Source of the DNA: Sanghuangporus weigelae
Lineage: Eukaryota; Basidiomycota; Agaricomycetes; Hymenochaetales; Hymenochaetaceae
NCBI GenBank assembly: GCA_033182465.1
Contig: CP137322.1
Location: forward strand, 2,356,001-2,420,000
Reading direction: 5' to 3'
Length of the DNA: 64,000 nucleotides
The notes under the pieces were generated by a model. It searched no databases, was not told where the DNA came from, and saw nothing but the letters and a program-made list of their open reading frames with translations. Both the position numbers and the translations under genes were made by a program. This document shows, in pieces, positions 2,485-44,261 of the stretch; positions within the stretch are counted from its first letter, which is position 1, and each line of letters opens with the position of its first letter.

Positions 2485-2936
2485 ATGATATGATTGCTTT
2501 TGTATATGCTTGATCTTCCGTTACTTTTCCTTGTTTTTCAACGGAGCTCCGAAAGAAAGTGTATTTATTCATGTAGGGACACTCACCACGACGGCAAAGC
2601 CAAGTCGATGTCCAGAATAGAGCGATGGACTCGTCATGCACGACGAAGTCTTTCCAGATGCGGATGATACGCAGGCTTAGGAGGAGAAGCTGAGAATGTA
2701 CTTTGATCCTTGACCTGCTTCAAAAAAACGAACTGATGTTGACTTGACGAATGCGAGGTCACGTGTCCGCGATTCTTGATTTCGGTCAAACCTCAAGGCG
2801 GTCAAAGGGCGGACTCGGACTTGGCCAGCGGAGATATTTCACCAGGCAATCATCAGAATGTGATCTCAATCTCTCTTGCATCCCCCCAAACACGCCCTCT
2901 TTCACCTTCGTGTTGGAGGATATATCGCCCCTCGAG

Positions 2937-5028
2937 ATGGCGGAAGTCAACGCGAAATCTGTTGCAGAAGAATGGCTCTCAGCATTCGCCAGTTCATTGT
3001 CGCCAGGCAGTAGCGGCGGAATTCCCTCATTATTTACTTCAGGCGGATACTTGAGAGATTCGTTGGTCTTCACCTGGGACTGCCGAACAATCCATGGCGG
3101 CAATAGCATACAGGACTTCTTGTCTACAAACCTTCCCGACCATGCCTTACATAACTTTCAGTTGGATACTAGCTCACCACACCTATCACCGGTGCTTGAC
3201 AAGTCAGACCCAAGCTGCGAGACGATCAAGGCCTTCTTCGTCTTCGAGACGGAACGCGCTCTGTGTCGTGGCGCAGTCAGTCTTATCCAAGCGCAAGGAA
3301 GCGGCGAATCCTCCTCGTGGAAGGCTCTTAGCGTCTTCACAGCTGTCGCGGATTGGAAAGGTTATGAAGAAGCTCCATACCTAGATGTTCAGAATCAGAA
3401 TGATGCGGAGGGTAATTGGTATGAACATAAATTGCAAGGCCGTGTAGTCGCAGAATCCGACCCGACCGTTCTAATCGGTTAGTCATGCATCTTTCTGTGT
3501 ACATCAGTCCCTTTACCGAGGCATTTGGTACAGTTGGTGCAGGGCAATCTGGTTTGCAGCTTGCCGCACGTCTTCGTCAGTCTGGCATCTCGTGCCTGTT
3601 GTTAGAAAAAGAAGCCAGAGTTGGTGATAACTGGAGGAAACGATACCCGTCTCTGAAACTCCATGTTCCTCGAACTTATTGTCAATGTATGTCGTCCCGC
3701 TTCGATGTAGAACACCCGACGATTGATTGACAAGCATGAACGCCACAGTGCTTTACCAGCCTTATCCTTCGAATTACCCAGAATATATTCCGAAGGACGT
3801 CGTCGCGAATCGGTTGGAAGCTTACGCCTTAGCTCAGAATTTACATGTCTGGACTTCATCCACGTTAGAGAGCGCACCATCTTACGATCTGACAGCGAGG
3901 ACGTGGACGGTCGGTGTCATTAAGGATGGCCAACGCATCATACTGCACCCGAGGCATCTCGTCATGGCTTTGGGCCCCTTCGGAGAAGGGATAACTCCAG
4001 AAGTCAAAGGCCGGGACATTTTTGAAGGTTCTCAGACTCACTCCGAGCACTTTCCTGGAGGTAGAGAATATGCCAGCAAGCGTGTACTTGTTTTCGGCGC
4101 TGGAAACTCTGCCTCAGATATCTGTGTGGATTTGGTTCAGAACGGAGCAAAATCTGTCACGCTGTTTCAGCGATCTCCAACTTGCGTCCATTCCAGAAAG
4201 TACATCCGCTCCTTGGTCAATGCGTTCTTCCCGGATAATGTGCCGATCGATGTAACGGACTTCAAGATGGATACGATGCCCGTGAAGCTGATGATAGAAT
4301 TTTTCCGCGCTCAGCAGAAGGCTGCCCGTGAGTACGACAAGGAGATGTTGAATGGACTGGAGGCGGCAGGTCTCAAGTTATGGGATGGCCCGTCCGGCGC
4401 TGGATATATTGAACTCGGATTAACAAGAGGCGGAGGTAAAGCCATATTTATCCTTAGGTCCGTTTTTGGTTCTCACTATACATTCAGGATATTGTATGCA
4501 TCATGGTTTTCACTTACACGAAGGTTTTGCTAACTGGTTCCAGTCTTTGACTCGGGCTTCGCTTCTCTTGTTTCTGATAGCATGATTAAGCTGAAGACAG
4601 ATGTCGACATCACTCGCTTTACTGAGAAGTCCGTGGTCTTCTCAGATGGGTCTGAGCTTGAGGTCGACGCCATTGTTTACGCGTAGGTACCTTTGCATTC
4701 TTCCGCGAATCAAACCTCACCAACAGTGAATACAGAACTGGGTACAGGCCGGTACGAGATACGTACAAACGCATTCTCGGGGAAAAGTTTGTTGACGAGA
4801 CTCCGGAGATCTGGGACCTCGACGAGGAAGGTGAAGTCAGAGGTGTTTATAGGCCGGCAGGTCATCCAGGATTTTGGTATGCAGCGGGAGATTTCTCTTT
4901 CTCAAGGCGCTCTTCGAAGCGTTTGGTGAGGCATCAGATACCCATTCGAAGTGGTACCTTTCTGACTGAGATAACTTTGTTAGGCACTTCTCATCAGAGC
5001 TTTCGAGCTCGGCTATTATGTGCCGTAA
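2937..5028 (+). CDS. Flavin-containing monooxygenase with N-terminal NTF2-like region
   Basis: Predicted FAD/NADPH monooxygenase of the FMO/Baeyer-Villiger group; substrate unknown. Exons 2937-3477, 3534-3686, 3749-4435, 4544-4682, 4736-4925 and 4984-5028 give 584 aa. Residues 1 to about 175 resemble a SnoaL/NTF2-like fold, as in many fungal FMO-like proteins. The FAD Rossmann motif GAGQSG is at 182-187. The FMO identifying motif FxGxxxHxxxF is at 323-333 (FEGSQTHSEHF). The NADPH Rossmann motif GAGNSA is at 348-353. The acceptor at 3749 restores the family-typical run after HVPRTYCQ. The start at 2937 gives the normal family N-terminus; an in-frame ATG at 2751 would add 62 residues without family features. 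The last short exon encodes the usual C-terminal helix ending GYYVP. Confidence 0.88.
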
Positions 5029-5640
5029 TGCCGCGATATCTTGTCATAACATGAATGAATATTTTAGTTGTTCCCTTCCCTTACATACACATTTAACTGG
5101 GGAGATAAGCTCACCACCGTGTGACAGTCTGTCCCGATGTCTTAGGAAGTTAGCAGATGGTCAAGAATCATGGCTCAATGCCTGCCTTGAACGAATCTTC
5201 CGCCTCTGAATCGGTTTATTAGAACATGGCCATTCTGAACGTTCCAATCCACACTTCTCGCCTCCACAAAATAGCAGTCTCAAATGCTCTGAGTCCGGGG
5301 GACGCAGCTTTTGGCATCGCTTTAATAGCTCTAGAGAGCGCCTAGTCTAGTTCTTCGTCATGACATGAACGAGTATTGTTATTGTCCAGTGTCTTGGATG
5401 AAAATAGACAACGAAGTACTGTAGCTACCAGCATGCCTGAACTTATTTACCCCCAAAGGTTCCTTTCAAGAATAGGCGATGGTACACGCATGGCCCTTTC
5501 CTAACAATGAGGCAAACCCTGCTGCTGAGCCTCTCTATCAGGCAGATGGGACACAAAGCTTTCCGAATATGCTGTGATTCTATTAATACACCAAGACATA
5601 AGAACACTAGCACTACAGTCACCCGCAGACACAGATCCTT
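5029..5640. other. Intergenic region after the FMO gene
   Basis: Contains the 3' flank of the flavin monooxygenase gene. No other gene or repeat recognised. Confidence 0.5.
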
Positions 5641-5647
5641 CTACTGC

Positions 5648-6030
5648 TCTGCAGGAGGGACATCTGCATCTCCATTAGCATAGCTACTAAAGCCTGCTTC
5701 TGTCAGGAGGTTAACGAGCTGGCCGTCATTGTGCAACTTCGCCAGATCATCGGACTCACCGATGGAGGGATTCTGTGCATCTTGTTTGCTAAACCACGCT
5801 TATATTCTGTCATGATCGAGTTTCGTGAGCACTTGCAGAATAAACGAAGCCTTCATCTATTCCTGAATGATCTAGAGACCGAGAAAAGGCTTCAATTCTC
5901 GGCTCTTTCGTGCGTACGCTCGTGCAGGGCTGTCTTTCGCTGATCTGACTGAGATCGGGACGATGTCGTTTGAAAGATCTGAGGAGCTTGATCTGGTTGC
6001 GAAATACTGCTCTTTCGAACAAATTCAAAT
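5648..6030 (-). pseudogene. Block X', unidentified coding-like fragment (copy near arm 1)
   Basis: I do not recognise the protein. On the minus strand a frame with the run DLSQISERQPC is conserved, with many silent and conservative changes, in a second copy at about 14560-14870 on the plus strand, which implies past selection on a protein. Downstream on the same strand a second open stretch, AWFSKQDAQNP to DVPPAEQ, ends at a stop near 5648. The two stretches are separated by stops and could be joined only by an implausibly short intron, so I call it a decayed gene fragment. It lies 3' of membrane/WD40 copy 1, whereas its sister lies 5' of copy 2. It could also be the 3' end of a living gene whose other exons I cannot see. 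Confidence 0.4.
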
Positions 6031-6242
6031 GAATTCGAAGAAAAAAGTCAAGGACACAGGTCTAGATGGAGATAAGGAGTGCCTTGGCCGGACGCGATAG
6101 ATTCACTTTCTGACGTGCTTAGTTCTTACATTTGCTTCCGTCGACGCAAATTCGCTGGAGTGCCCCTGTGGTGAACTCGTATACGCCGCGAATACATAAA
6201 GAACCATGCCCATTCAGTCGAAGACTAGGTCTCTAGGGTTCA

Positions 6243-9200
6243 TTAGCCACTTTCTCTACCGTTCAGAGTGAAGTGTATCCGACAATGTATCGTTTTCGTT
6301 AAGACAATCGTGAAACATCCAAGTTTAGAACGAACAAGGTCGACAACATACATACATGTATATACTTGATCGCGCGTCAAACGAGGTCTAACTTCTCCTT
6401 TCCAATTCCACTTTCTCCCGCTTCCCAGGTTCCGAGATGCGGCGATTCTAGCCAAAATTTCACGAAGGGTGCCCAGGTGTATCGACGAATGCACTTTTAA
6501 CTCTGCAGTATCGCCCTTTTCTTCATGGGCAGGCTGTGGCAATTCTGGAATTTCAGGCCTTGGAAGAGTCAAAAATCTGCCAACTGAAACCATAACATCG
6601 GACCTGTTAAATATGTCATGAACCTCGAAGAATTGTGCTCCTTCACAATGATGAAGAATAGTATTGTTTTGTATCGACCAGATCTTTACCGAACCATTGC
6701 TGTCGCCGAAGGCAAAAAGATATGGTGACGACAGACTCGAGTGCCCGACCGCGAAGCTTATTGGGCTGTCGACGATGGCCTTCCTGGAAGATGTCGTGAA
6801 TGCGTGTAATGTCTTTGTACTTGCTGAATTCGGTTCAGATGTGTGATGGAGTATGCGAATTTCCGCTGCAATACATGTCATGTAACGGACTTCGAATGCT
6901 TAAATGACGGGCTCACTGTCAACGACGATGGAGACCAGATTTTCGTCCTTTCCAAAGCAATCAACTACTCTTTCTTGTACTTCCTTCTCCAACCATCGAA
7001 ATCCGGGCACCGACTCAACCGATCCTAAGCCATCCGGTTCAATCATGTCTGGAATCTGCAGAATGTGATTAACTCGAAGTAACTCTATGTGACATTGTCA
7101 AGTACATACCCCTCCACCACGGAGGAAGATCCTTCCAGAGGCTTGTGATACAGACATAGACGTGTGTCTTCTGAAGACATCATATGCCCTGAAAACGTCA
7201 ATTATTAGGGCGGATTGTAGAGAGGGTTCGGAGGACTGACTGCTTGATAGATCCAGCCTCTCGATCAATAATTACACATAGGGTAAGTAATTGAACTCAT
7301 GACGACCTTGAAAAGACTTCGATTCATACCCATTACCCGCGTTTGGTCACTTCGTGTCCGTATAAGACACACAATCCTGTCTTTCTTGTACAACACTGCG
7401 TCCAATACAGATCCAATAAATGACACGTCCGAGAAGTCGAATGAATATAGCTCCTGATCGGGAAGGTGAGGCTACAGCAAACGACATCGGATTAAACAGC
7501 ACCTTGCAATTTTTATCTTTGGAGGGTAGTTCGTCCTTAGACAAAGAAATGCCGCTCGCGTCGAAGAAAGGAAGCTCGAACGCCTTGAGCGAATTATCCA
7601 GCAGACATGATAAACCTGACAACATTCTCAGGATGTTGCGCTTCACTTCCTTGTATTCGGACACACCAGTTAGTCCAGTATCCTTCTCGCGAATCCAGCG
7701 CACCGTTCCGAAGGCACAGTCAAGCTCCACAAGTCTATACACAGGAAATTCGACCTGGAGGTAGAAGCGTGATTAAAACTCTCGTGAGTATCCTAGGAGT
7801 AAGAGATGCTCGCCGATTGAAGAAAGACGTATACGTAGACCCCTTCGGACGATCTCACGACAAGGTCTCCTTGCCCTACTTCTCCGTACTTATAGTCCAG
7901 ATTGCTGTGCTTGTTTGGATTCCTAGTTAATGTAGTGAGCAAGGGTATTGCTCCGTTTCATTTCGAACATACCACAGTATCTGCCGTACTGGGCTCGCGT
8001 CCTGCACTACGATCGTCTTCAGAATTTCAAAGGAGTATTCCTATATTTTCGACATCAGACGAGGCGCCAGAACCCCGGATTGTCGAGCTTATACTTACGG
8101 TCTTATATATTGTCACGACTCTTGAGCTGCACAATGCAAATTCATACATAACCATATCGTCAAAGACGCAAGAGACGTACAAAGCTGATGCCAAGAAACT
8201 GCAGTCAGGGGAGAACTGCATTAGATCTTCAGGTCGGGCGCTCCAGATCTCAGCCTAATGAAAGTCAGAAATGAATGCTCAGTCTAAGTAAGGCTTACCG
8301 ATGACGAGATGCCTTCAGAACTATCGATGCGATGTGTCGGAAGCTCTGCCAAACTCAGACTTTCAGGTTCAGGAATAGCAAGTCCAGTTTCTGGAAGTGA
8401 AGAATCCATCTCTAGTCCGAAGTGCTGTTGTGTAATGCTAGGAGCAGACGGAGAACTGTGATGAGTTGAAACGTGCGATGATTGTTGATCCGGTCCTTTA
8501 GCGAAGCGTTAGATGTAACGAGCGAGCCAGACTAGAGGTACTGACCTTTCTCGACATCACCACGCGGTGTTCGATCCGTCCAGAAATAGTTGCCATTCAA
8601 AACGTTTCCGATTGACAGGGCCGCCATCTTGCTCCAGTGTCTTATCTGAGCTTTAGTCCGATCTACCATGCTTTTCCGGCCCTTCGGGTATCTCGATTTC
8701 CACTGTTCAAATAGATACCATGCTGACAGGAAAAAGATCGCGTATGCGTGGAATTCCGCGAACACAGTAGGCACAGCAGCGGAGACGTCTCGCTCCTAGA
8801 GCATACAGGAAGTTAATTGGATGTAAGCAAACGCAAAAGCCTGCTCGCCTGTTGATCGGCTATCAGGAATGCCAGAAGACACAGTCCGATCGAGAAGGTT
8901 GTTAGAGCGACGATCAAAGCAATCATTGGTGCATTCCGAAGCCAGGTATGAGCCAGCGACGGTAATGAATGGTCGGGTCGGCGACTAAAATTGACGTAAG
9001 TCTTGGGGATCTGCAAGCGATTGCAGATACAAACATAGGCGACTGTTGCCACGTCATCACCAGGAGGCTGTAGACTGCTGATGCAGTACTGAACACCAGT
9101 GAAACGAACCAAAACGAGTTCGTGGTCGCAGTAAGGACGGAGACAGGTCCATCTGCGGTGATCTGAAGCGTCGTTGCGGTGAAACGTAGCAATCGTGGTG

Positions 9201-10624
9201 AGATTAAGATATCGCTGACTGACAAATTCTTGGGATTGTCGAATCGCCGGAATCTCTGTTCATGGAATCAGAAAAGTCTATGGACGAGGCGAATGAAGCT
9301 CACCCTTTTCGGCGATGCTTGTGAGCTCTTGGATGTACGTTTCCAGACACTTGACCAACGGATTGAGCTTTAAATCAAGATACGTATCCACGTTGCAGCC
9401 CATTCCTTAGGACTAGCATGCGTGAATGAATATAATCATATTGAACAGTCCGTACCTATTTCCTTGCTATCAAATCCGAACTCGTCGTCTAGTTCTGACG
9501 CAATTCTCTGCGCGTCCCTCAACAACAGATATGAGGAATACCGGAAAAGACTCTTACCTGCGAGTCCGTATTCATGTTGCGGAGACTATCAAAAAAACCT
9601 GTGCTGAAAACACCGAACTCTTCAAACGCATCCCTCATTTCCGATATAACCTTATCCAGAGCAGACAATTCTTTCGCGAAATCATCAACATCTGAAGCTC
9701 ATCTTAGTCGGAGGCCTTTGAAAAAAGCCATGTAACTTACTCAGGTCCATTCCTTTAAGACGATTTTTTTTTCGGTGGAAGGAAGCACTAGATGCAAGGG
9801 ACGTTAGACACTAGTCATTGCTTAACCCGATCATCTCATACCACACCGTGCCAAGGCCATTCTTCATCCTCTCCAAAGCTCTCGCAGTGCGTTCACCACC
9901 TCCGAGTGTATTGAGCAATGCTTTGACATGATGCACCTGAAAGTTATGAGTGTATTAGCTCGCATCTTATTCAACCGAGCTTTCTCACCAGTGGATTATG
10001 CTTCTTAGGAAATCTATGTAGTCAAATTGTCAGCCATACGCTATTTTCATGTGATAGACGTCGCCAATTTTTCACTTAAGGAGATAAATCGCATTCGTTG
10101 GTTCAAATTTCGAGACTATTTCCTGAAGTCGTTTTTGTTCGTCTTCGGCAGCATCACCTTCCACCACAATTAGCATACAATTCCGAAATTGGAACTCATT
10201 TTGTGACGCACTCGACCCCTTGGCGTCTTCATCACCTAAATTGAACAAGTATCAGATATGTATAGACAAAGAATCAGACTCTCTATTTACGCAGTCCGGT
10301 CTCATTGTCTCGTTCCTCGAGCCAAGGCATATCATCTTTGGAGCCATCGATCCATTAGGACTTCTGCAATATAGACAATATTGGCACAAGAGATTACCGG
10401 TATCCTCTGGAAGGTCCCTCTCATCAACAACTTCTGTCAGGACACGAATAAGTTTGCGCAAAAAGTTGGTCTGTCTCCTCGACAACTTCTTGGGACGTTG
10501 ATGAGCGGTTCTGCCTGATACATAACCTGTAAACAGCGATACACATTGTAATCAGTATTTTACTTGCATCGTAGAAAACTTGATCGGTGAGTTGCTCACT
10601 TCGCCTTCCTCGAGAGGTAGTCAT
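6243..10624 (-). CDS. Multi-exon membrane + WD40-propeller protein, copy 1
   Basis: Unnamed family of roughly 1,000 aa, about 20 exons. The N-terminal third is a cytosolic helical region containing RRQTNFLRKL and EFGVFSTGFF. The middle has four hydrophobic spans, around TIATFLSSVTATTLQITA, FWFVSLVFSTASAVYSLLV, IALIVALTTFSIGLCLLAFL and YAIFFLSAWYLF. The C-terminal third is a beta-propeller with WD40-like strands such as MQFSPDCSFLA and LFAFGDSNGSVKIWSI. Role unknown; a membrane-anchored scaffold or sensor is a guess. The start ATG is at 10624-10622 and exon 1 is only 25 nt (to 10600). The frame stays open through every exon I traced, including two places where copy 2 has lost 7-8 nt. One intron, donor at 8848, uses GC. 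It forms arm 1 of a large inverted repeat. Confidence 0.7.
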
Positions 10625-10712
10625 CGTTTGTTCGAACAAAACACATTGATATTATCGACAAGGAGCTTGTGCCATCATGTTGAATTTCCAAAAGCGGACA
10701 ACGAATTGTATT
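6560..10712 (-). repeat. Inverted repeat arm 1
   Basis: Reverse complement of 15058-19226. Sampled stretches, for example around 8532-8774 against 17018-17260, differ at only a few positions per 200 nt. The match starts at an ACAATTCG just upstream of the gene start and fades after the motif VSVGRxLTL near the C-terminus, where the two copies end differently. Boundaries are by eye, within about 20 nt. Confidence 0.85.
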
Positions 10713-11525
10713 GCACGTGATTTCTGTAACGAACGCGTCGACATTGTTTGCCATTGTTTACCCTTTCGAAAATCCAAGCTATATATCTGGCATTCTCTTG
10801 CAATGTTTGATACAAGAATACAAGAACGAGGGATTCATCTGAGTAGCTAACTTATACTATGTAACGCTTATACACCATCTCAGCACGAGGAAGTATGTAT
10901 ATATAGATACTGGTGCTGAACCTTGATGAAAACAATATCAAAATTCAAAGCACCTCCAGAATAGATACCTGCTACTGGTATATTGCAATGACTGCCGCGC
11001 CGTTTCGGCAAATCTGACTCTCCAGACCTGACAAAATGATACTTGTGAATTTGAATTTGAATTTCATTCTTCTGCACCAGGCATCGGAGTCAGAGCTCAC
11101 GTGGCTGGAGTCGTAACTCCGAAATGCTCCGGAGCTGGAATGGAAATAAATTTTATTTTTAAGCGGGCAAGCCTTCTTATGCATGTATGCGCTGCGTAGT
11201 GGTAATAATAAAGAGATACCTGCGCAAGCAAGCAAGAGTACAACATGTGGAGTGTATAAGTAAAGTAAGATTGTCTTGTACTTCTGGTGTCGGCCTTTCC
11301 CGCCAAGGAAGATATGGTGTCGGTGTCGAAGACGAAGGCAAGAACGGCAAGAAATAAGTAAAATCAAATAGAGGGAGTATCAAATCAATATCCAGACCAG
11401 AAATGAAATATATATATATGTTTAAGTTCCTCTCCTTCAGCGTACACAACAAACCACTTCACAATATTTCACAAGAAGATCGTAATCGTGAGGAATAGAA
11501 ATATACTTGTGAACGTAAATATTCA
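10713..11525. other. Intergenic region 3' of the bZIP gene
   Basis: Holds the 5' flank of copy 1 (to about 10850) and the AT-rich 3' flank of the bZIP gene, including a short (AT)n run near 11410. Overlapping minus-strand open frames at 10972-11452 lack protein features and are rejected. Confidence 0.5.
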
Positions 11526-12575
11526 TCACGCAGCAACGGCAAGCTTCTTCGTTTCTTCCTTCGCATTGACGGCACTTTCATCGTTCCCCCTTTTCCTCTT
11601 CGCGCCGCTCGACGCTTGGCTCGGACTGGGACTTGGGACCACCTGAGCACCTTGACTAGCGCCTGTAACTCCCACGACAAGGCCCTTCAACCATCCGTTT
11701 TCCCTTCTCAATCCCTCGCACTCTCTTTCTAATGTATTTACACGAGCCTCGAGTTCTTGAGCGCGTCTCTCTAATGCAGCTTCCCGTTCCTTCTTCTTCA
11801 GCCTGAAGCGAGCGGATGCGGCAGTGTTCCTTCGGCGCTTGTCCTCCGCCGCGACCATAGCCTGCACCACGACTGAGCCTGATTCCGGAGATTCACCATT
11901 TTCACCGTTCGTGGGAGAAGAGGGAGAGGACGCCTTTCGAGAACGAGATGTACGCTTTGGCTGAGTCGATGGTTCGGAAATGAGTTGTGAAGGAGCAGGA
12001 CTAGATTGTCCGGTATTCGATAAGGCTGCTGGTGCAATCCCTGGCAGCTGCGCGGCTTGAGGCAAGAAAGGCGCGGCTGCGAACGGGTAGGCGGCAAGAA
12101 GCTGCGCAAGGGTGGCTGCCTGCTGAGGGGCCGGAACAGGAGGCTGGGGAGTAACTTGCGGTAACAAGTATGGATCGATGCCGAATCCCGCGAGGAAACC
12201 TCCCATGTCATACGGAACTTGTCCATGCGGCGGGACTGCAGGCTGCTGAGGGTTAGATACCGGAGTAGGATTAACAGGATTAACGTGTGCCTCGAGCGGG
12301 GCGGGGCCTTCCGCATCGGTAACATCGTCATCCTTGTCGTCGTCGCCGACTAGCGAAGGAGATGCTTGATCGTCATCCCCCGGCTTCCGAGCGACCGAAC
12401 GGTCGATAGGAGATTCGTCGGTCTGGAAGGTGAGATTAGACCACAAGTCGAGCTGGGCGGCTAAGTCCGGGAAATGCGCGTTGGCAAGCAGAGAGTCCTG
12501 GCCGTTGTCTGCATACTGGTCCGAAGCCGAGTCCGTCTGGACGATATTAAGGCCGTGGAGAGGGGACGGCGCCAT
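11526..12575 (-). CDS. bZIP transcription factor, Cys3/Met4-like
   Basis: Predicted nuclear sequence-specific activator of 349 aa in one exon. The basic region at about 244-265 has the bZIP signature N-x7-R (N250 to R258) in the run RRRNTAASARFRLKKKERE. This matches the Neurospora CYS-3 / yeast Met4-Met28 subgroup, which controls sulphur assimilation; the assignment to that subgroup is from resemblance. A leucine zipper follows to about residue 300. The N-terminal two thirds is acidic then Pro/Ala/Gln-rich, as expected for an activation region, with a patch of acidic residues at about 67-92. It is the only intact gene between the two inverted-repeat arms. APS kinase, a plausible target class, lies at 60.2 kb. 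Confidence 0.88.
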   Translation of the reverse strand: MAPSPLHGLNIVQTDSASDQYADNGQDSLLANAHFPDLAAQLDLWSNLTFQTDESPIDRSVARKPGDDDQASPSLVGDDDKDDDVTDAEGPAPLEAHVNPVNPTPVSNPQQPAVPPHGQVPYDMGGFLAGFGIDPYLLPQVTPQPPVPAPQQAATLAQLLAAYPFAAAPFLPQAAQLPGIAPAALSNTGQSSPAPSQLISEPSTQPKRTSRSRKASSPSSPTNGENGESPESGSVVVQAMVAAEDKRRRNTAASARFRLKKKEREAALERRAQELEARVNTLERECEGLRRENGWLKGLVVGVTGASQGAQVVPSPSPSQASSGAKRKRGNDESAVNAKEETKKLAVAA

Positions 12576-13420
12576 TATTTCGCAATCCCGACTTCAGCTA
12601 ATCTAAAAATTTACTGTTCTGGTTTGTCGATGGCGTGCAGTCACTTTGAGCGGGAATTGCGAGCGAGTGACGAGCGCCAGAAGTAGTCACGAGCAAGGGC
12701 ACGAGCACAGACACCTCCGACCGACGGGGGGAATCAACTGGGCACGGTGACGACGTTGACCAGAAGTAATGGATAGAAGAAGAACTGAGGATAGGAATGA
12801 ACGAACGAGTGAGGCAATGCGCTCAGTATATCTATTAGGTGCACGTGCCCGGATTTCGGCTTATAAATCCTTCTTTTTCCATCTTCTCCGAACCCGGTCC
12901 GATAAGCAACTGGCACATGCGCACTTTTCCTCTCACCGATTTTTTGATCAAGATTGTATTTCCGAGACAAGTTGCAAACATTTTTCCTATTAAAATGCAT
13001 GTACTTATTCCGAACTAGTCGGGACCACTCTTTTGTCCCGGAATTTCTGAATATTTACCCAGGGATATCCTCAGTTGCAATAGGTGTTTATTCGCCTTCC
13101 CATCCGTTCGAGTACCGCAACCATTACTAGTACGCATGCCAGCGAACGGCGATGAATACGGACCATTAGTAACCCGAGCGACTGCATATCATGTCATAGA
13201 ACTCCCATGCAATCAGTCGAGTGGGGTTGTGTACACCGTCTCTTCCGCGAGGTCAAGAGGTCATGTGTCTTGATTTCTGAGTCTGAGCTTTGAATGGTCA
13301 ATCGAGAATTTGGCGCTGATTGTTTCTATTCTAGCTCACCACAACTTAGGGAGATGTGCGCTTCAGAGATGCCTCGAGGTAAGATAAGTCCGCCCAAAGA
13401 CCCAGACAGTTTTTAGAGTA
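12576..13420. promoter_or_regulatory. bZIP gene promoter region
   Basis: Non-coding upstream region of the bZIP gene on the minus strand. A palindromic E-box CACGTG is at 12842-12847 and a TATA-like TTTATAAG on the minus strand lies near 12860-12867, about 290 nt from the ATG. CACGTG is the Cbf1-type site found at sulphur genes in yeast, but single hits are expected by chance about every 4 kb. No other gene supported. Confidence 0.35.
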
Positions 13421-13434
13421 GTAAGCCGACTCCG

Positions 13435-14870
13435 TTAGTTAGGTTGCCAACGGCGTCTGGCGGAAAGAAGTTGGTCATCTGGACAGACGGACAAATGATG
13501 ACAACAAACTTTGTATCGGATACGCTTACTGCTTGCCTGAGTAAGCTCGATGCTCCAGGTTCGGGCTTTATAAGCTTTTCTGAAGAGCGCACACCAGTGG
13601 GAATGGAGAACAATGTGGCCAGCGTCATACCGTAGCTTCGGCGGGGATGAACCACCGCGGACGTCCTTTCTCGTCAAGAGATGCACTTTGCTGCTGATGG
13701 GACCTTAGAATCCAGATAGGACGGCGTGGTTGACCCAGAACGTTGACCGAGAATAGCGAGAAATTCCTATATAGTCGACATATGAAGTTCTTCTATGTCC
13801 TTCAGTCCCTTCCTGATATGGTCGCAGCCTTCGCCTCGTCTTCGACTTGAACTACATGCAAGGAAGGAGAAGCCCTACCCACCGCATGGCAGTCACATTC
13901 TTGGACGGCAGCCCACAGGCATGTGCGCTGATTCGTATTGGAGAACCGATCGTGGAAGAAACGCTTCAGCTTCTGGAGGGGACGAGTGATCGAAGCACGA
14001 AAAATATCTCACCTATGCCGCAGGCTCCCGGTCCCAGCTGCAGCCAGCCCAACATACGGTTGCTCAGCACTGACGTATCTACTGGCAGCGATCTTCTATG
14101 TTCCTGAGGTGGCAGGTCCATCCGAGAATCCTACGAGTGTGCCTTACCAGTATCATCGCATCTTGAAGAAGGCACAAAGGACTCTCGCATAGCAAGCGTT
14201 TATACCAATGATCCTTCGTATCCATCTTGGCTGTTCGAGTACTAATGAACTGAGCGGTCCTTCAAATGAGGATAAGAGGACGCAAGGGGTTTCAGAAGTC
14301 GTTGTTACCTCGGTAGAGGAAGTGGCGAGTGAACCCTAGAGACCCAGTCTTCTACTGAAGGGGCATGGTCCTTTATGTATTCGCGTCGTATACGAGTACG
14401 CCACAGGGACAAGCTCGTCATCCCAGTTCGAATTTGCGTCGACGGAAGCAAACGAAAGAACACAGCACGTCAGGGAATGAACCTATCGCGCCATTTTATG
14501 TCCGACCAAGGCACACCTTATCTTCATCTAGACGTGTGTTCTTGCCTTTTTACTGGAATTCATTGGAATTTGTTCAGAAGACTATGATTTCGCGAGCAGT
14601 TCAAGCTTCTCAAATCTTTCGAGCGGCGTACTTTAAATGATATTCCTAATACGATTCGATCTCAGTCAAATCAGTGAAAGACAGCCCTGCATAGACGTTA
14701 AAAAGAAAGAGTCAAGCACTGAAGCCTTTTATTGGTCTCTAGATCACTCAGAAATCGATGAAGGCATCGTTTATTTTGCAAGTGCGTACAAAACTTGATC
14801 ATGACAGAGTATAAGCGTAGTTTAGCAAGCAAGATGCACGGAATCCCTGTAGAGAAGAAATTTGATCACC
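13435..14870 (+). pseudogene. Block X, unidentified decayed coding region near arm 2
   Basis: I do not recognise the product. Three successive plus-strand open stretches look coding. The first is about 13444-13635. The second is about 13847-13980, with the run TFLDGSPQACALIRIGEP. The third, in another frame, is about 13980-14192, with VIEARKISHLCRRLPVPAAA and a hydrophobic run near ALTYLLAAIFYVPE. The frame changes within a few bases near 13975 without a good intron. The final part (14560-14870) matches block X' at 5648-6030, sharing FDLSQISERQPC and the downstream DHSxIDEG. In-frame stops near the end suggest decay. It lies directly upstream of membrane/WD40 copy 2, the opposite relation to copy 1. 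Confidence 0.4.
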
Positions 14871-15057
14871 TAATCATATCAAAATCATTCTGGCAATGGA
14901 AAAAGGTCTAAAACCGATCTAGTCCAGTTCAAAGCAAGGAGAAAGTCCAGCGTAGGGCCTCCTTGATCAACCGTTTCAATGCCAGTCATATCTTGCCAGT
15001 GGGATAGGCGGATGCCACAAGGTGGAATCTGGATGTGGTTGTTGAACTGAACTGTAA

Positions 15058-18000
15058 AAAACAATTCGATGTTCGCTTTTGGAAATTCAACATGATGACA
15101 TAAGCTCTCCTAGTCGTTCACACGGACATAATATCCATGTGTTTTGTTTTTGTTCAATCAAACAATGACTACCTCTCGAGGAAGGCGTAGTGAGCATCCT
15201 CATCGGTCGATTTTTCTACAGTAAAAGTAAAATACTGACTTACAATGCGTATCACTGCCTACAGTTCTTGGAAAAGGCAGAACCGCTCGTCAGCATCCTA
15301 AGAAATTGTCGAGGAGACAGACCAACTTTTTGCGCAAGCTTATTCATGTCCTGACAGAAGTTGTTGATGAGAGGGATCTTCTAGAGGATACCGGTAATCT
15401 CTTGTGCCAATATTGTCTATATCGCGGAAGTCCTAATGGACCGATGACTGGATAGATGATATGCCTTAGCTCGAAGAACGAGACAACGAGACCGACTGCG
15501 TAAATAGAGGGACTGATTCTTTGTCTATATATATCTGATACTTGTTCAATTTTTTTAGGTTTTGAAGACGCCAAGTGCGTCACAAAATGAGTTCCTATTT
15601 GGGAATTGTATGCTAATTGTGGTGGAAGGTGATGCTGCCGAAGACGAACAAAAACGACTTCAGGAAATAGTCTCGAAATTTGAACCAACGAATGCGATTC
15701 ATCTCCTTAAGTGAAAAATTGGCGACGTCTATCACATGAAAATAGCGTATGGCTGACGACTTGACTACATAGATTTCCAGAGAAGCATAATCCACTGGTG
15801 AGAAAGCTCGGTTGAATAAGATGCGAGCTAATACACTCATAACTTTCAGGTGCATCATGCCAAAGCATTGCTCAATACACTCGGAGGTGGTGAACGCACT
15901 GCGAGAGCTTTGGAGAGGATGAAGAATGGCCTTGGCACGGTGTGGTATGAGATGATCGGGTTAAGCAATGACTAGTGTCTAACGTCCCTTGCATCTAGTG
16001 CTTCCTTCCACCGAAAAAATCGTCTTAAAGGAATGGACTTGAGTAAGTTACATGGCTTTTTTCAAAGACCTCCGACTAAGATGAGCTTCAGATGTTGATG
16101 ATTTCGCGAAAGAATTGTCTGCTCTGGATAAGGTTTTATCGGAAATGAGGGATGCGTTTGAAGAGTTCGGTGTTTTCAGCACAGGTTTTTTTGATAGTCT
16201 CCGCATCATGAATACGGACTCGCAGGTAAGAGTCTTTTCCGATATTCCTCATATCTGTCGTTAAGAGACGCGCAGAGAACTGCCTCACAACTAGACGAGT
16301 TCGGACATGATGGCAAGGAAATAGGTATGGACTGTTCAACATGATTGTCTTCATTCACTCATGCTAGTCCTAAGGAATGGATTGCAAAGTGGATACGTAT
16401 CTTGATTTAAAGCTCAGTCCATTGGTCAAGAGTCTGGAAACGTACATCCAAGAGCTCACAAGCATCGCCGAAAAGGGTGAGCTTCATTCGCCTCTTCCAT
16501 GGCCTTTTCTAATTCCATGAACAGAGATTCCAGCGATTCGACAGTCTCAGGAATTTGTCAGTCAGAGATATCTTAATCTCACCACCATTGCGACGTTTCT
16601 TTCCAGTGTCACCGCGACGACGCTACAGATCACCGCAGATGGACCTGTCTCCGTCCTTACTGCGACCACGAACTCGTTTTGGTTCGTTTCACTGGTGTTC
16701 AGTACTGCATCAGCAGTCTACAGCCTCCTGGTGATGACGTGGCGACAGTCGCCTATGTTTGTATCTGCAATCGCTTGCAGATCCCCAAGACTTACGTCAA
16801 TTTTAGTCGCCGACCCGACCATTCATTACCGTCGCTGGCTCATACTTGGCTTCGGAATGCACCAATGATTGCTTTGATCGTCGCTCTAACAACCTTCTCG
16901 ATCGGACTGTGTCTTCTGGCATTCCTGATAGCCGATCAACAGGCGAGCAGGCTTTTTGCGTTTGCTTACATCCAAATAACTTCCCGTATGCTCTAGGAGC
17001 GAGACGTCTCCGCTGCTGTGCCTACTGTGATCTCGGGATTCCACGCATACGCGATCTTTTTCCTGTCAGCATGGTATCTATTTGAACAGTGGAAATCGAG
17101 ACACCCGGAGGGCTGGAAAAGCATGGTAGATCGGACTAAAGCTCAGATAAGACACTGGAGCAAGATGGCGGCCCTGTCAATCGGAAACGTTTTGAATGGC
17201 AACTATTTCTGGACGGATCGAACACCGCGTGGTGATGTCGAGAAAGGTCAGTACCTCTAGTCTGGCTCGCTCGTTACATCTAACGCTTCGCTAAAGGACC
17301 GGATCAACAATCATCGCACGTTTCAACTCATCACAGTTCTCCGTCTGCTCCTAGCATTACACAACAGCACTAGAGATGGATTCTTCATTTCCAGAAACCG
17401 GACTTGCTATTCCTGAACCTGAAAGTCTGAGTTTGGCAGAGCTTCCGACACATCGCATCGATAGTACTGGAGGCATCTCGTCATCGGTAAGCCTTACTTA
17501 GACTGAACACTCAGTTCTAACGTTCGTTAGGCTGAGATCTGGAGCGCCCGACCTGAAGATCCAATGCAGTTCTCCCCTGACTGCAGTTTCTTGGCATCAG
17601 CTTTGTACGTCTCTTGCGTCTTTGATGATATGATTATGTATGAATTTGCGTTGTGCAGCTCAAGAGTCGTGACAATATATAAGACCGTAAGTATTAGCTC
17701 GACAATCCGGTGTTCTGGCGCCTCGTCTGACTTTGAAAATATAGAGATAAGCCTTCGAAATTTTGAAGACGATCGTAGTGCAGGACGCGAGCCCAGTACG
17801 GCAGATATTGTGGTACGTGCAATGTTAAACGGAGCAATATCCTTGCTCACTACATCAACAAGAAATCCAAACAATCACAACTATCTGGACTATGGGGACG
17901 GAGAAGTAGGGCAAGGAGACCTCGTCGTGAGAGCGTCCAAAGAGGTCTACGTATACGTTCTCGTTCAACTAGCGAGTATCTCTAATTCCTAGAATACTCA

Positions 18001-19226
18001 CGAGGGTTTAATCACGCTTCTACCTCCAGGTCAAATATCCTGTGTATAGACTTGTGGAGCTTGACTGTGCCTTCGGACCGGTGCGCTGGATTCGCGAGAA
18101 GGATACTGGACTAACTGGTGTGTCCGAATACAAGGAAGTAAAGCGCAACATTCTGAGAATGTTGTCAGGTTTATCATGTCTGCTGGACAACTCGCTCAAG
18201 GTCTTCGAGCTTCCCTTCTTCGACGCGAGCGGTGTTTCTTCATCTGAGGAAGAATTGCCATACGAAGATAAAAATTGCAAGGTGATTCTCAACCCGATGC
18301 CGTTTGCTGTAGCCTCATCTTCTCAATTAGGAGCTATATTCACTCGACTTCTCGGACCTGTTCGAAGCTGAACATGTATTAAATGCATTGTTTTATCAGA
18401 AGGACAGGATTGTATGTCTTACACGGACACAACGTGACCGAACACGGTTAATTAGTAGGAACTTCCGTTTTTTCAAGGACGTCATTAGTTCAATTGCCTA
18501 CACTATATGTAGTTATTGATCGAGAGGCCAAGTCTATCAAACAGTCAGTCCTCCGAAGCCTCTCTACAATCCGCACTAATAATTGACGTTTTCAGGACGT
18601 ATGATGTCTTCAGCAGACACACGTCTATGTCTGTATCACAAGCCTCTGGAAGGATCTTCCTCCGTGGTGGAGGGGTATGTACTCCACAGTGTTACTTCGA
18701 GTTACTCGCATTCTGCAGATTCCAGACATGATCGAACCTGACGGCTTAGCGTCGGTGGACCCAGCGCATAATGTCTTTCGCCCGTCCGAGGAGAAACTAC
18801 AAGAAAGAGCAGTTGGCTGCCTTGGAAAAAACGAAAACTTTATTTTCGTTGTCGTCGATGGTGCGTGTGTCATTGAACATTCGAAATCCGGCTAACGTCA
18901 TGCAATGTTACAGCGGAAATTGAAATATTCCATCGCTTTCTTCTGTCTGGGATCGCATTTAACGGAAGAACTACACTTTTTCACGACACCTTCTACGACG
19001 GCCATCGTTGAGAACCTCGTAAGCTTCGCGGTCGGACACTCGAATCCATATCTTTTTGCTTTTGGCAGCAGCGATGGTTCCGTGAAGATCTGGTCCATCC
19101 AAAACAATGCCATCCTGCATCATTGTGAAGGAGCACAACTCTTTGAGGTCCATGACAATCGGGATGGGTCACATGTTGAGGTTTCAGTTGGCAGAATTTT
19201 AACTCTTCCTCCGCCTGACATATCGG
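15058..19226 (+). repeat. Inverted repeat arm 2
   Basis: Reverse complement of arm 1 (6560-10712) with near identity in coding and intronic positions alike. The spacer between the inner ends is about 4.3 kb and carries the bZIP gene and block X. Confidence 0.85.
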
Positions 19227-38937: not shown

Positions 38938-39269
38938 AGTTTACCTAGTTCTTTTCCATTCAAATTGTTTGGTATACCTCAACGTCTTCCTCCTTTCTTC
39001 TACATCGGGTCTCGCCGTTCCTCCCCGACGATGATCTTGTAGGATGTCTATCTTTTTCCACATGTTGATGAAGATAGCCTGCACAGTATATACCTGTTGT
39101 TCTCCTGATTGACTCCGAAAGTTCTCCTCCTGACTTCATCAACGGTGCTACTTCTCACTTCTCTTACTACTTGGGTCAGGCCGGCTATAGATTTTCACGG
39201 ACCAAAATGGGTTTCGCACCTTTATAGTAAACCCGGAGTATGGAGGCGAGCTTGCGGATCCTGCTTCTT

Positions 39270-39800
39270 CCTTCGAGGACACTGAAAGATTCGGAGGCTG
39301 AATTTTCCAAGGACTTGGAGCGTTTGCGGGTGTGACCATCCCCTGACACTCTTACTCGCTTGACCGGGTACGTGCCCAATCTCGTTATGTTTATCGAGAA
39401 AATCATCGAGAATGGCTTCGCTTATAAGAGCGAAAGCAGTGTGTATTTGGACGCCGGTGCATTTGAGCGCGTTGATGAGCAGGAAAACTTCAGCCCGGTA
39501 GTAAGGGTAAGATGGAGCCTCTCGAGGAAGGAGAGGGCATGAAGATTATCTGCATGGCACCGTACCTCTCTCTGGTGTGGTGAAGCTAGAGAGTAGGTGC
39601 ATTGGCGCCGAAGGCGATGGCCAGCGGATGTCAGTGGTCAAAGACTGCTTTCGCCTCGTGGAAGAAGTCGAAGCCAGGTGAGCCGCCTGGCCTTCCTCGC
39701 TGGGTGCGAGCCGTCCTGGCATACAGAGTGATCAGTGATGCCAAGCAGTCGTTTCGGATATGGGCATTCAATCTGGAGGCATTGACTTAGTCATTATCTC
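39270..39800 (+). pseudogene. Cysteinyl-tRNA synthetase pseudogene fragment
   Basis: Broken stretch of the class I enzyme that charges tRNA-Cys. In order: SEAEFSKDLERLRV, a TGA at 39333, PDTLTRLTGYVPN, VMFIEKIIENGFAYKSESSVY, then in a shifted frame KGKMEPLEEGEG, then WKKSKPGEP (near 39655), and shifted again GIQSGGIDLV (near 39785). This is the collinear core region of CysRS, ending at the conserved HSGGxDL signature, here QSGGIDL. At least one stop and two to three frame changes are present, and no flanking N- or C-terminal parts are visible, so it is a partial dead copy of a host gene. Whether it was copied through RNA cannot be told from the fragment. Confidence 0.75.
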
Positions 39801-40808
39801 GACAATAGAGTTCTTTTGTTATCAATCGCCGCGAGATTTTGGCCACTCGAAACTCCGAATTTCCCCGCTTAATTACTAACTTGCTGCACCGTTTGCTTTT
39901 CAAACGGCGTCTGATAGCAAAATAACTCTAATGGATTGTCTCGATCTGAAGTGAGCTGACGACCACTCATAACCTGTTACTGATTTTCGCCATACGGTTC
40001 CTTTCCTCCGAATTCAACGTATCACTATAATTAACCATCTGATACCGTTTTTCTTTACAACGCATTGTTTTCCTGCTAGACCTACTGCAAATTCAACGGG
40101 GAACTATTTCTCATACGCGGATCATCTTCACGCGGAAGGCCTGAAAATGCGGCGCAAGTTGCTCGAGAATTTCATTCCGCGAGTGAATTCAAGTTCTTAT
40201 CCAATTCTGTATCCGCCTTTCTGGAAGCATGAGATTGCACTTTCGGTGCTTTTATCCACACAGGAAATGCCTTAGAAATACCCGGCTCGAAAACTGCGGC
40301 TCGCGTGCATCGCACAGCTTTGGAATTTGAAAGTCGACTTTATCGCTAGCTTCATGACGGAGGTGCGCTACATAGAAACAACCTTCAATGCATGTGCTTC
40401 TTCTCTTCAGCGATCCAGTACAGTTCTGCAACGGCGAACTCATGCAATTCCTCCGTTATGTACGTTATGTCTCCTCGATTTCCTTGCTAGGTTTGACCTC
40501 GTTCGCTCTCCATGCCGCTTGTTTTTTTCCCAGCACGAACCTTTTACTTCTCTGTCTCCATGGACAGATCCGTAAATTTTCTTCGCTTCTATCAAAAGCA
40601 CTGTCCTGGTGCTGAGGAGAAATCAAATGACGAGCATCATGAATTCGGTCACATTCTCGAACGCGATATGCAGAACTTGTAGGTGCTTTCCCAGAACCGT
40701 GCGCACTTCTGCATTGACTCCGCTACGTACTAGAAGCATTATTGGAACTTGTCTCCGGGATAAATGTATGAAACAATTCACAGAGAAGAAACTTGGATAT
40801 CGATGTCG
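39801..40808. other. Gene-poor stretch
   Basis: About 1 kb with only short open frames and no recognisable protein, RNA gene or repeat before the first MITE. Confidence 0.5.
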
Positions 40809-40811
40809 TAA

Positions 40812-41312
40812 GGGCCTGTTCGGCTGCAGCGTGATCTGAGATATTCCCTGCCAAAAAATGCCGCGTGATTTGAGATGATGTAGAGGTGTGATCTGAGGTT
40901 GAGGTGAGCGTTCGGTGCACTTTCAGAAATCACGTTCTCACATCACTTCCCTGCCAAATGGACCTCTATCTCAAAAACAGCTCAGACCTGTTTTTCAGAT
41001 AGCGGTATCTCACATCATCTGCCACTATCTCATCCATACACAACAACTCAACCACAAAAAAATTAATTAAAAATTACAAAAATAATCTATCCATATGGGC
41101 GCACTGCTCCCCAGTTGAAATTGAATTTTTACATGCCTGCAATGTGGTGCTATGGGCTCTCAGCAAAAGTGAGGGTTTGGGACCAGCCGCGAGATGGGGA
41201 GTGCAAAAACATTCCCACGGTTGAGGTACTCAACTTGCCGCAACTTGCACACTTGCATGTTGCGATTGAGGGGAAATCACGATCTCACATCACGCTGCAG
41301 CCGAACAGGCTC
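40812..41312. mobile_element. MITE A, PIF/Harbinger-type, 501 bp
   Basis: Non-coding miniature inverted-repeat element. The left end GGGCCTGTTCGGCTGCA matches the inverted right end TGCAGCCGAACAGGCTC with one mismatch. It is flanked on both sides by TAA (40809-40811, 41313-41315), the 3-bp TWA target duplication of PIF/Harbinger elements. An inner copy of the end motif, CGTTCGGTGCA, lies at about 40909-40919. It is related throughout to MITE B, sharing for example the A-rich run around 41060-41090 and the following CCCCAGTTGAAATTG. Confidence 0.85.
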
Positions 41313-41320
41313 TAAGATAA

Positions 41321-41826
41321 GGGCCTGTTCGGCTGCACGTCAAGTTGAGATAGACCTGCCATATAAAGAAAGTGTGATGTCGCGGAAGTCATCGGAGATC
41401 ACACCAAAATCAGGCACTGTTCGGCTGCACAATCTCAAATCATGATCTCGCGTCTCCCTGCCAAACTGGACTCAACTTGAAAAAGAGGTCCGACCTGTTT
41501 TTCAAGTTGAGATCACACACCATCCGCTCTTTCTTTCCAGTATCTCTGCCACTCAACACAACACAACTACAAAAAAATAAATTAAAAATGGCAAAAATAA
41601 TCTATTCATAGGGGCCGATTGCCCTGCAGTTGAAATAATTTTTTTACAGGCGTGCAATATAGTGCAATGGGCCCTCAGCAGAAGTGAGGGTTTTGAACCT
41701 CAACTCGCGTCACAATTGTGTTGAGGTGTTGAGAGATTATCAGAAATATTCCCACGATTTGCACACTAGTCATGTAGAGATAGAGCCAAGTCGAGATCTT
41801 GTGATTTCGTGCAGCCGAACAGGCCC
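41321..41826. mobile_element. MITE B, PIF/Harbinger-type, 506 bp
   Basis: Same family as MITE A. The left end GGGCCTGTTCGGCTGCA at 41321 and the right end TGCAGCCGAACAGGCCC at 41826 are perfect inverted repeats. TAA duplications are at 41318-41320 and 41827-41829. A second, inner left end (GGCACTGTTCGGCTGCA) starts at 41413, 92 nt inside. Only TAAGATAA separates MITE B from MITE A. Confidence 0.87.
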
Positions 41827-41829
41827 TAA

Positions 41830-42879
41830 AGTACGCGATGGGTCGTGAGGATATTGCGCGTTTTCGATCTCGGCGTGCTCGCATGCCGAGATCGGCTGGA
41901 GGAACGAGCGGGAGAACGCTTCAGTGAACATAAGTCGCCCGTCTTTGAAGTACTAACTTACTCCTTAGTGTAGTGTTCATTTATTGAGTATTGAAGAATT
42001 ACTAAATTATTCCAGGAAGGAGGAGCGGTTATGCCCTACTCGCGAATCCATTGCGAGATAGGGTTAGACGACTTGCGATCGCAGGTGGAAATAGTGCGCT
42101 CAACAGTCTTCTAGACGGCAAAGTTCTTGTCAGGTTATTCGATCCTGCGCAGTTACAGAGTGCACACTATGGGAAACGGATTCGAGCCGAGGCGAAGGCT
42201 ACTTTGAAGGCACAGCAGCTGAGACAGAGACACGGAGACGCTTGGCTAGTATTGAGAGGGGACGTATGCCACCCTATGAACTATTCAGAGCTCTGAACAC
42301 CCCTGAAAACCTATGGATGCTATGATTATCAAGGTATTGCCTTTGCTGACTGCGAGGGAATAATTGAGTAGAAACGCCGTGGAGAATATTCCGAAAAAAG
42401 TACGACGCCAAGGTGAAGATACACGGGGAGTTTCTGACTTGGCAAGCAAGCGAAGGCGATCACACCGGACTAGGTCCTTGCGAGTGGCATCTATGTGTAC
42501 GTACATGCGGTTAACGCCTGGCTTTATTCAACTAGTAACACAACTTATCTGGAGAAATGCATTTGTATTACTATGCTTCTGCGGTTCCTTTCCATGCCAG
42601 GGTGGGTGATGATCATCGTTATGCATCAGAGGATACTTCCTTTTACGAGACAGGTGCAGCTAGCCAGTTTCTTGAGCAGAGATCCCGGGCCTTTTCCATG
42701 ACCAGGATGATTGTTCGCCGTGCTCAATCTTGAATGACAAGTCGCGTTCATGATCGGTTCAGAATACCAACAAAGGAGATATTCATTGATACGAAGAAGT
42801 AAACCATATCGGTGCCTTCATCACGGTTCATGGGAAAGATGTTTTACTTGAGCATCTTGTACGCCACGATCGAACACGC
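41830..42879. other. Region between MITEs B and C
   Basis: About 1 kb. A plus-strand open frame at 42051-42296 contains QQLRQRHGDAWLVLRGDVC but nothing I recognise. The sequence joining 40808 to 41830 across the two MITEs reads on in one frame for about 45 codons (through VKYAMGREDIARFRSRRARM, counting one TAA), so a host coding exon may have been split by the insertions. Unproven. Confidence 0.3.
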
Positions 42880-42882
42880 TTA

Positions 42883-43335
42883 GGGCCTGATCGGTAAAAA
42901 AAATAACGGCGGATAGCTTATCCAAAGATGAAGATCGTGCGACTCGGAGGCTACCTGTTGTGAGGTAATTTAGTCGGCAGCACTCGGCATCTGCTGATCA
43001 CTGGATTACAAACGCGATCGACACACTTGCCACATTTAGAAGTTACATGTCCCAACAGCTGATGGTGACTTAGAATTACTTGGTAATAATAAAAGTAGCT
43101 TTACTCTGTCAGCATGCAAGTCAAAGTCTACATATCCGAACTGGGTGATTTATTGCAAATGTATGATTGAGGCAGATCCCTGCCATTTTGGTACCGGAAC
43201 ATTACGGAAGTGATGATTACACTATCTGAACAAATAGGAACAAATAAAGAGGGAAAATGCCGGATCCCACGTCGTTAACTCGTTATCCAGTTATCCGCCC
43301 TTATCCACCCGTTATTTTTTTTACCGATCAGGGCC
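42883..43335. mobile_element. MITE C, PIF/Harbinger-type, 453 bp
   Basis: A different but related family. The left end GGGCCTGATCGGTAAAAAAA, continuing to about 42920, mirrors the right end ...TTTTTTTACCGATCAGGGCC with about 35 bp of near-perfect inverted repeat. It is flanked by TTA on both sides (42880-42882, 43336-43338). The interior is AT-rich and non-coding. The first seven bases, GGGCCTG, are shared with MITEs A and B. Confidence 0.87.
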
Positions 43336-43338
43336 TTA

Positions 43339-44261
43339 GCGGAGTAGAACCCAGGAACCAGAATGAATCCCTGGCTATTACATGACCCCTGTCTAGTACT
43401 GCAGAAGCCTCAGGCCAATAATCCACATATTTTTGACCGATTTTGGAAAAGGTTTGAGCATCACTTCAATTGGGCTGATGGACATGAAACCAAATTTAGA
43501 GGCCGTGAGAATTTTGTGTCTGTTTTTTCGGATCGCATTCTAGTGTTGTGCGCCACATCGCAGAATAATACTTCGTGGTGGATTTGAATGGAAATGGAAT
43601 GACAGTGGTTAACATAGTGCGGTGTTATCATTCTCATCGGCACGTTACGGGAAGAAGAGTAGACGAACGTTATAAAGGTATGCTATATTTCAGCGGACAT
43701 TTGCATAGTTGTGTCCAGGGCGGCCAACATAGTCGGTTCGCCGAGTTTGCTCATTGTCCGAGTCCGCTGTGAATCGCAAGAAATCTTGTGTCACGATATC
43801 CAATCAAGATCTGAGGTGTGTAATCTGGGCATTTATTACGCTTCTTACACGTTCTTGAAGCTGATCATTTATGTATGGCGCACGGGAAGCCGTATCAGCG
43901 GCGTCTTGCTCGCCAAAGACTGAATAATACGCACGGCCGGATTCGCAGGAGAAAAAAATTAGAATGCGGTGGGCCGATCCATAGAGCGTCTGGCTAATTG
44001 TGAATTGGATAAGCCGAACTTCTTTTGTCCCGCTGCTACTCCTGCATTTAAACCATCTGGCTAATACAAAATGAATGGGCCAAGAATTCTTGTCCTTGAG
44101 ACAAAGTTACCGGTGTTTATCCCTCCAAAAATTAATACATGTAAAAATAAAAAATCCAACCACCTTAGCTTAAATATGCGAACGATGGCTGATCAGAGGA
44201 TCTTAGATTCCTCACAACCCGAGTCGTGTACCGTCACCACTATCCATCGGCCCTACCAAGA
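43339..44261. other. Upstream region of the WOPR gene
   Basis: About 920 bp. Open frames at 43363-43587 (with FDRFWKRFEHHFNWADGHET) and 43575-43772 are not recognisable. Possible decayed coding DNA plus the WOPR promoter. Confidence 0.35.

Follow-up and report, generated by a model that had tools for sequence, protein, structure and literature searches.

Two arms of reverse-complementary DNA flank a bZIP regulator gene in the genome of Sanghuangporus weigelae, and their arrangement raises the question of whether this locus is a young duplication that can flip the gene between its arms or an old pair of genes with a more complicated history. The locus lies in a window of 64,000 nucleotides, the whole stretch of DNA analysed here (C5:2356001-2420000), within a genome of 33.87 Mb in 13 contigs. 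Comparison of the arms with each other and with their relatives favours the second answer. The arms are probably old, divergent paralogues of the DUF6535 family that have been patchily homogenised by ectopic gene conversion, each with a private disabling deletion.

A blastn self-comparison of the window places the left arm, L, at 6550-10712 and the right arm, R, at 15058-19221, as 4.2 kb reverse complements (E = 0). The original prediction had put the arms at 6560-10712 and 15058-19226; the inverted repeat it described is real, and its outer ends are corrected. Each arm holds one intron-rich gene of the DUF6535 family, in L on the minus strand and in R on the plus strand, and the two genes are read leftwards and rightwards, respectively, away from the 4.3 kb spacer between them. 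Over 4,210 aligned columns, the arms are 88.8 % identical, and 414 of 4,139 scored sites differ. The arms as a whole are thus not near-identical, as had been claimed, and the term suits only their core tracts, at about 98 %. Identity well below 90 %, named beforehand as evidence against the claim, characterises the outer arm regions, whereas the core lies above that level. An ungapped repeat finder divides the same arm pair into 11 pieces of 86-99 % complementarity. A twelfth pair reported by this program belongs to repeat B, which is found in the flanks.

The differences between the arms form a mosaic. Identity per 100 bp ranges from 0.62 (6744-6842) to 1.00 in the core. At the outer (3') end of L, a two-state HMM delimits what appears to be unconverted background on the minus strand, from 6550 to 7102, which is 26.7 % diverged from R 18682-19221; five 100 bp steps at this end have identities of 0.75, 0.85, 0.62, 0.68, and 0.71. 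Two core tracts that appear homogenised are defined by a three-state HMM. Tract 1 spans 8284-9164 in L (minus strand) and 16627-17501 in R (plus strand), with 16 differences in 876 sites, while tract 2 spans 9534-10203 in L and 15583-16249 in R, on the same respective strands, with 14 differences in 668 sites. These main tracts have about 2 % divergence, and the three-rate HMM adds minor tracts at 7105-7206, 7601-7757, 8069-8254, 9289-9357, and 10373-10479. Outside the core, 200 bp steps of the arms are 5-36 % diverged. The longest exact run, 257 bp at 8421-8677, lies within core tract 1, and a second exact tract between the arms measures 159 bp.

This patchiness exceeds what evenly spread differences produce. 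When the differences are shuffled, under the assumption of even mutation, the longest run has a mean of 62 and a maximum of 124 in 5,000 shuffles, and a maximum of 162 in 2,000 more. The squared run lengths of the arms sum to 218,251, whereas no shuffle exceeds 87,257. HMM segmentation of the arm differences prefers two or three rates (BIC 2,476 and 2,474) over one (2,700) or four (2,523). The run-length statistic of the arms is 3.10 times the shuffle mean. In three controls treated like the arms, this ratio is 1.45 (an FMO-like block left of the repeat), 1.18 (one piece of about 1.6 kb from a direct duplication), and 0.91 (repeat B). The FMO block is also uneven (its value is reached in none of 2,000 shuffles, and its longest run is 88, p 0.005), as is the direct pair by the sum of squares (p 0.0065). 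Some unevenness is therefore ordinary in this region, and the arms lie well beyond it.

Within each zone of the mosaic, introns and exons diverge alike. In the core tracts, differences occupy 6 of 420 aligned intron columns (1.4 %) and 21 of 1,121 exon columns (1.9 %). Outside them, 81 of 592 intron columns and 272 of 1,898 exon columns differ, about 14 % in both, and at the outer end the counts are 20 of 87 (0.230) and 118 of 445 (0.265). These splits exclude gap columns and are approximate, with exon positions taken from a home-made model built without transcripts, in which two L exons were further split by hand. The earlier statement that the arms are alike even in introns is accurate for the core tracts and fails elsewhere. 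Constraint does not account for the likeness of the core, because core introns differ as little as core exons.

The genes in the arms belong to a locally expanded and clustered family. An exon of R within 16521-16868 exceeds the Pfam cut-off for PF20153 (24.7 bits versus 23.9), and the submitted L frame has no Pfam match at E 0.01. In an exon-wise search of the genome, the L and R exons score 22.0 bits each, under the cut-off; this search finds PF20153 above the cut-off at one place, on C10, and below it at six, both arms included. A more distant copy within the window, P4, lies at 47055-51186 on the plus strand, with borders from a home-made model. P4 (222 aa) has no Pfam match at E 0.01, and its longest open exon (48162-48827) matches 20 pieces of the genome at E 0.001. 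Eight of the places where these pieces lie are on C5, within 2.27-2.55 Mb, and six are on other contigs (three on C6, two on C8, one on C10). In a five-way alignment, L and R share 98.2 % identity in the core, while P4 and the copies P2 and P5 reach 51-63 % there with either arm. All 21 of the 200 bp steps that cover the arms place L and R closer to each other than to P2, P4, or P5; in the 22nd step, beyond the arm, they are no longer closest. L and R are therefore a pair, whose split is old at the outer ends. A WD40-like C-terminal part, suspected only by eye, has no Pfam match. The literature searched for DUF6535 or IPR045338 describes no function, and DUF6535 appears there only as a row of an expression table.

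Each member of this pair has a deletion of its own, and an intact open frame is absent in both. L lacks 11 bp relative to R at 9182/9183, within its DUF6535 exon, and the protein stretch covered by this deletion is kept in R, P2, P4, and P5. R retains the DUF6535 exon; its deletion lies further on, at about 17368/17369, where the loss of 7 bp relative to L shifts the frame into a stop. At this site, L equals the copy at C5:2270 kb in length. The 7 bp loss probably postdates the last exchange between the arms, because it sits within a core tract. The 11 bp loss in L is placed inside a tract by the two-rate HMM and about 18 bp outside one by the three-rate HMM. The gene models, which are paralogue-guided and frameshift-tolerant with approximate exon borders, report 5 events in L and 12 in R, some of which may be missed introns; the only events counted as lesions are the two deletions above, which show up in the DNA alignment and are at odds with other copies. 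The third exon of R also lacks 8 bp, but this loss is not counted, since a 1 bp deletion in the preceding exon brings the net loss to nine. Codon usage alone yields no gene model of at least 60 aa. Both copies are most likely pseudogenes, a reading that draws mainly on the two deletions and to which unusual splicing may be an alternative.

The sequences flanking the arms bear on the origin of the pair. Repeat B, at 5766-6261 on the minus strand, lies just 3' of L and is 78.1 % identical to the reversed 14311-14848. Its counterpart there, B', is on the plus strand just 5' of R, inside the spacer, and points the same way with respect to its gene as B does. The 78 % identity of B and B' resembles that of the unconverted arm ends, and a lost gene copy may have left repeat B as its tail. 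Because B is 3' of L and B' is 5' of R, a single palindromic duplication is an unlikely source; a shuffled head-to-tail array is the more likely origin of the arm pair. Reading the present order as an inverted isomer was considered and set aside: it fits the positions of B, since a flip would leave the left gene between B and B' in direct orientation, yet it saves hardly any events over the order as it stands. At mirror positions beyond the arms, the 3' flanks share only one 18 bp match (E 0.37) and the 5' flanks none at E 1. To the left of the repeat, the FMO-like monooxygenase block (2817-5766, with Pfam matches to FMO-like and Pyr_redox_3 within 3727-4533) has an inverted duplicate at C5:2266624-2269528, in pieces of 87.7 % and 77.0 % identity, and this duplicate adjoins another, apparently truncated copy of the DUF6535 family.

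The spacer contains one long open frame, and this is a bZIP gene, as originally described. The single-exon regulator gene occupies the minus strand (frame 11526-12593, first ATG at 12575), and its domain scores 38 bits against a cut-off of 22.3 for bZIP_2 (PF07716). At E 0.1, its matches in the PDB are only ATF-4 (0.023) and ATF-2 (0.096), and in a search of the genome the only full-length match is the gene itself, with one further, weak match to its bZIP end. It is presumably Cys3/Met4-like, judging by its basic-region motif only. When the spacer was searched by tblastn for a third gene copy, using many queries and no composition correction, the matches were weak (best E about 1e-4) except at repeat B and at the edges, where they are the ends of the arm-locus sequences themselves. 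From the start of the bZIP gene it is about 2.5 kb to the right arm at 15058 and about 1.7 kb to B'. The idea that a flip would change the promoter context of this gene is weak, because a crossover inside the arms, which the core tracts would most probably host, would carry the 2.5 kb of upstream spacer along. The whole spacer moves with the gene, and therefore no regulatory consequence is expected from the anatomy. The bZIP gene is most likely a bystander with no part in the events of the arms.

The pattern in this one genome points to conversion as the maker of the mosaic and suggests that the copies are non-functional. L and R would have arisen as old, divergently transcribed paralogues of the locally expanded DUF6535 family. 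Non-allelic homologous recombination between the inverted copies would have transferred sequence in patches, homogenising mainly the 5' and central parts and leaving the outer ends with their older divergence of about a quarter. A disabling deletion of its own would have arisen in each copy, within or next to a homogenised tract. The original prediction offered a choice between a recent duplication and arms kept alike by gene conversion. The pattern supports past exchange between the arms, in line with the latter; the old outer ends beside homogenised patches speak against the former. The same process could invert the spacer by crossover, for which only the core would be a good substrate. The event appears to be of a known kind and mostly a matter of ordinary genome evolution. 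In the literature searched, no comparable gene conversion among inverted paralogs of Basidiomycota was recognised.

One recent inverted duplication, with mutations accumulating evenly since, would explain the large tracts at 97-100 %, but an even rate is rejected by both the shuffle test and the HMM segmentation. The placement of repeat B on the 3' side of one arm and the 5' side of the other, together with the lack of clear mirror-position homology in the flanks, also speaks against such a duplication and makes it improbable. Even less probable is that purifying selection on conserved DUF6535 exons keeps the core alike. The core does include the exon most alike among the aligned copies (step 9251-9052), yet its introns, with just 6 differing columns, are as similar as its exons, and frameshifting deletions are present in both copies. 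Equally slight is the chance of an assembly artefact in which one arm derives from misplaced or haplotype-mixed reads. One arm is unlikely to be an assembly copy of the other, because the 414 differences and the different flanks set them apart, and the assembly itself has 13 contigs for 33.87 Mb.

More weight can be given to a live flip/flop, in which crossovers between the arms recurrently invert the 4.3 kb bZIP spacer and both orientations segregate in the species, although this too is unlikely. The closest known system is the flip/flop region of Saccharomyces, built on Centroid gene inverted repeats. According to its published description (PMC9731477), conversion between repeats is proposed to invert a 24 kb region of chromosome XIV incidentally, and in the reference strain the arms, of 4.2 kb, have 97.6 % identity with their intergenic parts counted in. 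The two loci share arms of about 4.2 kb in inverted orientation, genes of a family that often duplicates, apparent conversion, and unique sequence between the arms. This precedent, the inverted geometry, the past conversion that the arms suggest, and exact tracts of 257 and 159 bp that could support homologous recombination all favour a flip/flop. In contrast to the yeast arms, those described here are an 88.8 % mosaic whose steps outside the core are 5-36 % diverged, and homogenisation over the whole arm length is absent, with the outer 0.55 kb diverged by 26.7 %. The yeast spacer holds 15 genes in 24 kb, whereas the present one holds a single gene in 4.3 kb. The yeast arm genes are expressed and one is essential for spore formation, whereas those in S. 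weigelae look dead, which leaves nothing obvious to maintain the repeat. Both orientations have been observed in Saccharomyces; here a single genome shows one orientation. Slightly more doubtful still is a fuller version, in which conversion between the dead paralogues keeps a substrate for inversion, the sulphur-regulator-like bZIP gene occurs in both orientations, and the dead copies persist only as recombination arms.

A fungal inversion between two loci with a known role, the kind first imagined for this locus, is found in Hansenula (Ogataea) polymorpha, where, according to the published account (PMC4238957), nutrient limitation induces an inversion that switches the active MAT locus. Unlike in that system, a flip in S. 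weigelae would take the regulator's upstream sequence along with it, and a switch is hypothetical here.

The arms are a compact example of apparent ectopic conversion between decayed paralogues in inverted orientation, and a single region offers core tracts, ends without conversion, and pairs for comparison side by side. If both orientations were found among strains, the locus would be a further natural fungal case of inversion as a by-product of conversion, and one in which the genes of the arms need not be functional.

Left of the inverted repeat, an FMO-like monooxygenase block (window 2817-5766) has a second copy at 2266624-2269528 of contig CP137322.1, about 90 kb away and inverted relative to the first. 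The two align in pieces at 87.7% and 77.0% identity, and identity along the pair is somewhat uneven. A segmental duplication of 5-6 kb, in direct orientation, links window 39237-45663 with contig positions 2310149-2315469 through seven pieces at 69-85% identity.

The window copy of this direct duplication contains a MITE-like stretch at 42877-43341. The element itself (42883-43335, about 453 bp) is flanked by TTA on either side and ends in 33-bp terminal inverted repeats (93.9% identity). Near full-length copies listed across the genome number 21, including that in the window, share 91-100% identity and are spread over many contigs. The element resembles a PIF/Harbinger-type MITE.

Beyond the window, a near-perfect palindrome of 1.09 kb (contig positions 2435025-2436114) sits inside another copy of the DUF6535 family. 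Its arms are about 522 bp long, it is 96.8% identical to its own reverse complement, and a direct repeat of 9-10 bp lies at its ends. Searched genome-wide, a single arm has at least dozens of relatives at 94-100% identity, mostly as facing pairs; 40 of 220 candidates were scored, making these counts lower bounds. The reading is a young foldback element, perhaps Mutator-like.

The DUF6535 family occupies eight places in a 280-kb span (2.27-2.55 Mb), close to one end of the 2.77-Mb contig. Under our home-made exon model, frameshifts or stops are required in all five modelled copies, namely the two repeat arms (L and R) and the further copies P2, P4 and P5. The copy at 2.548 Mb looks comparatively whole across its matched exons; its matched stretch holds five stops, which would be intronic if the copy is whole.
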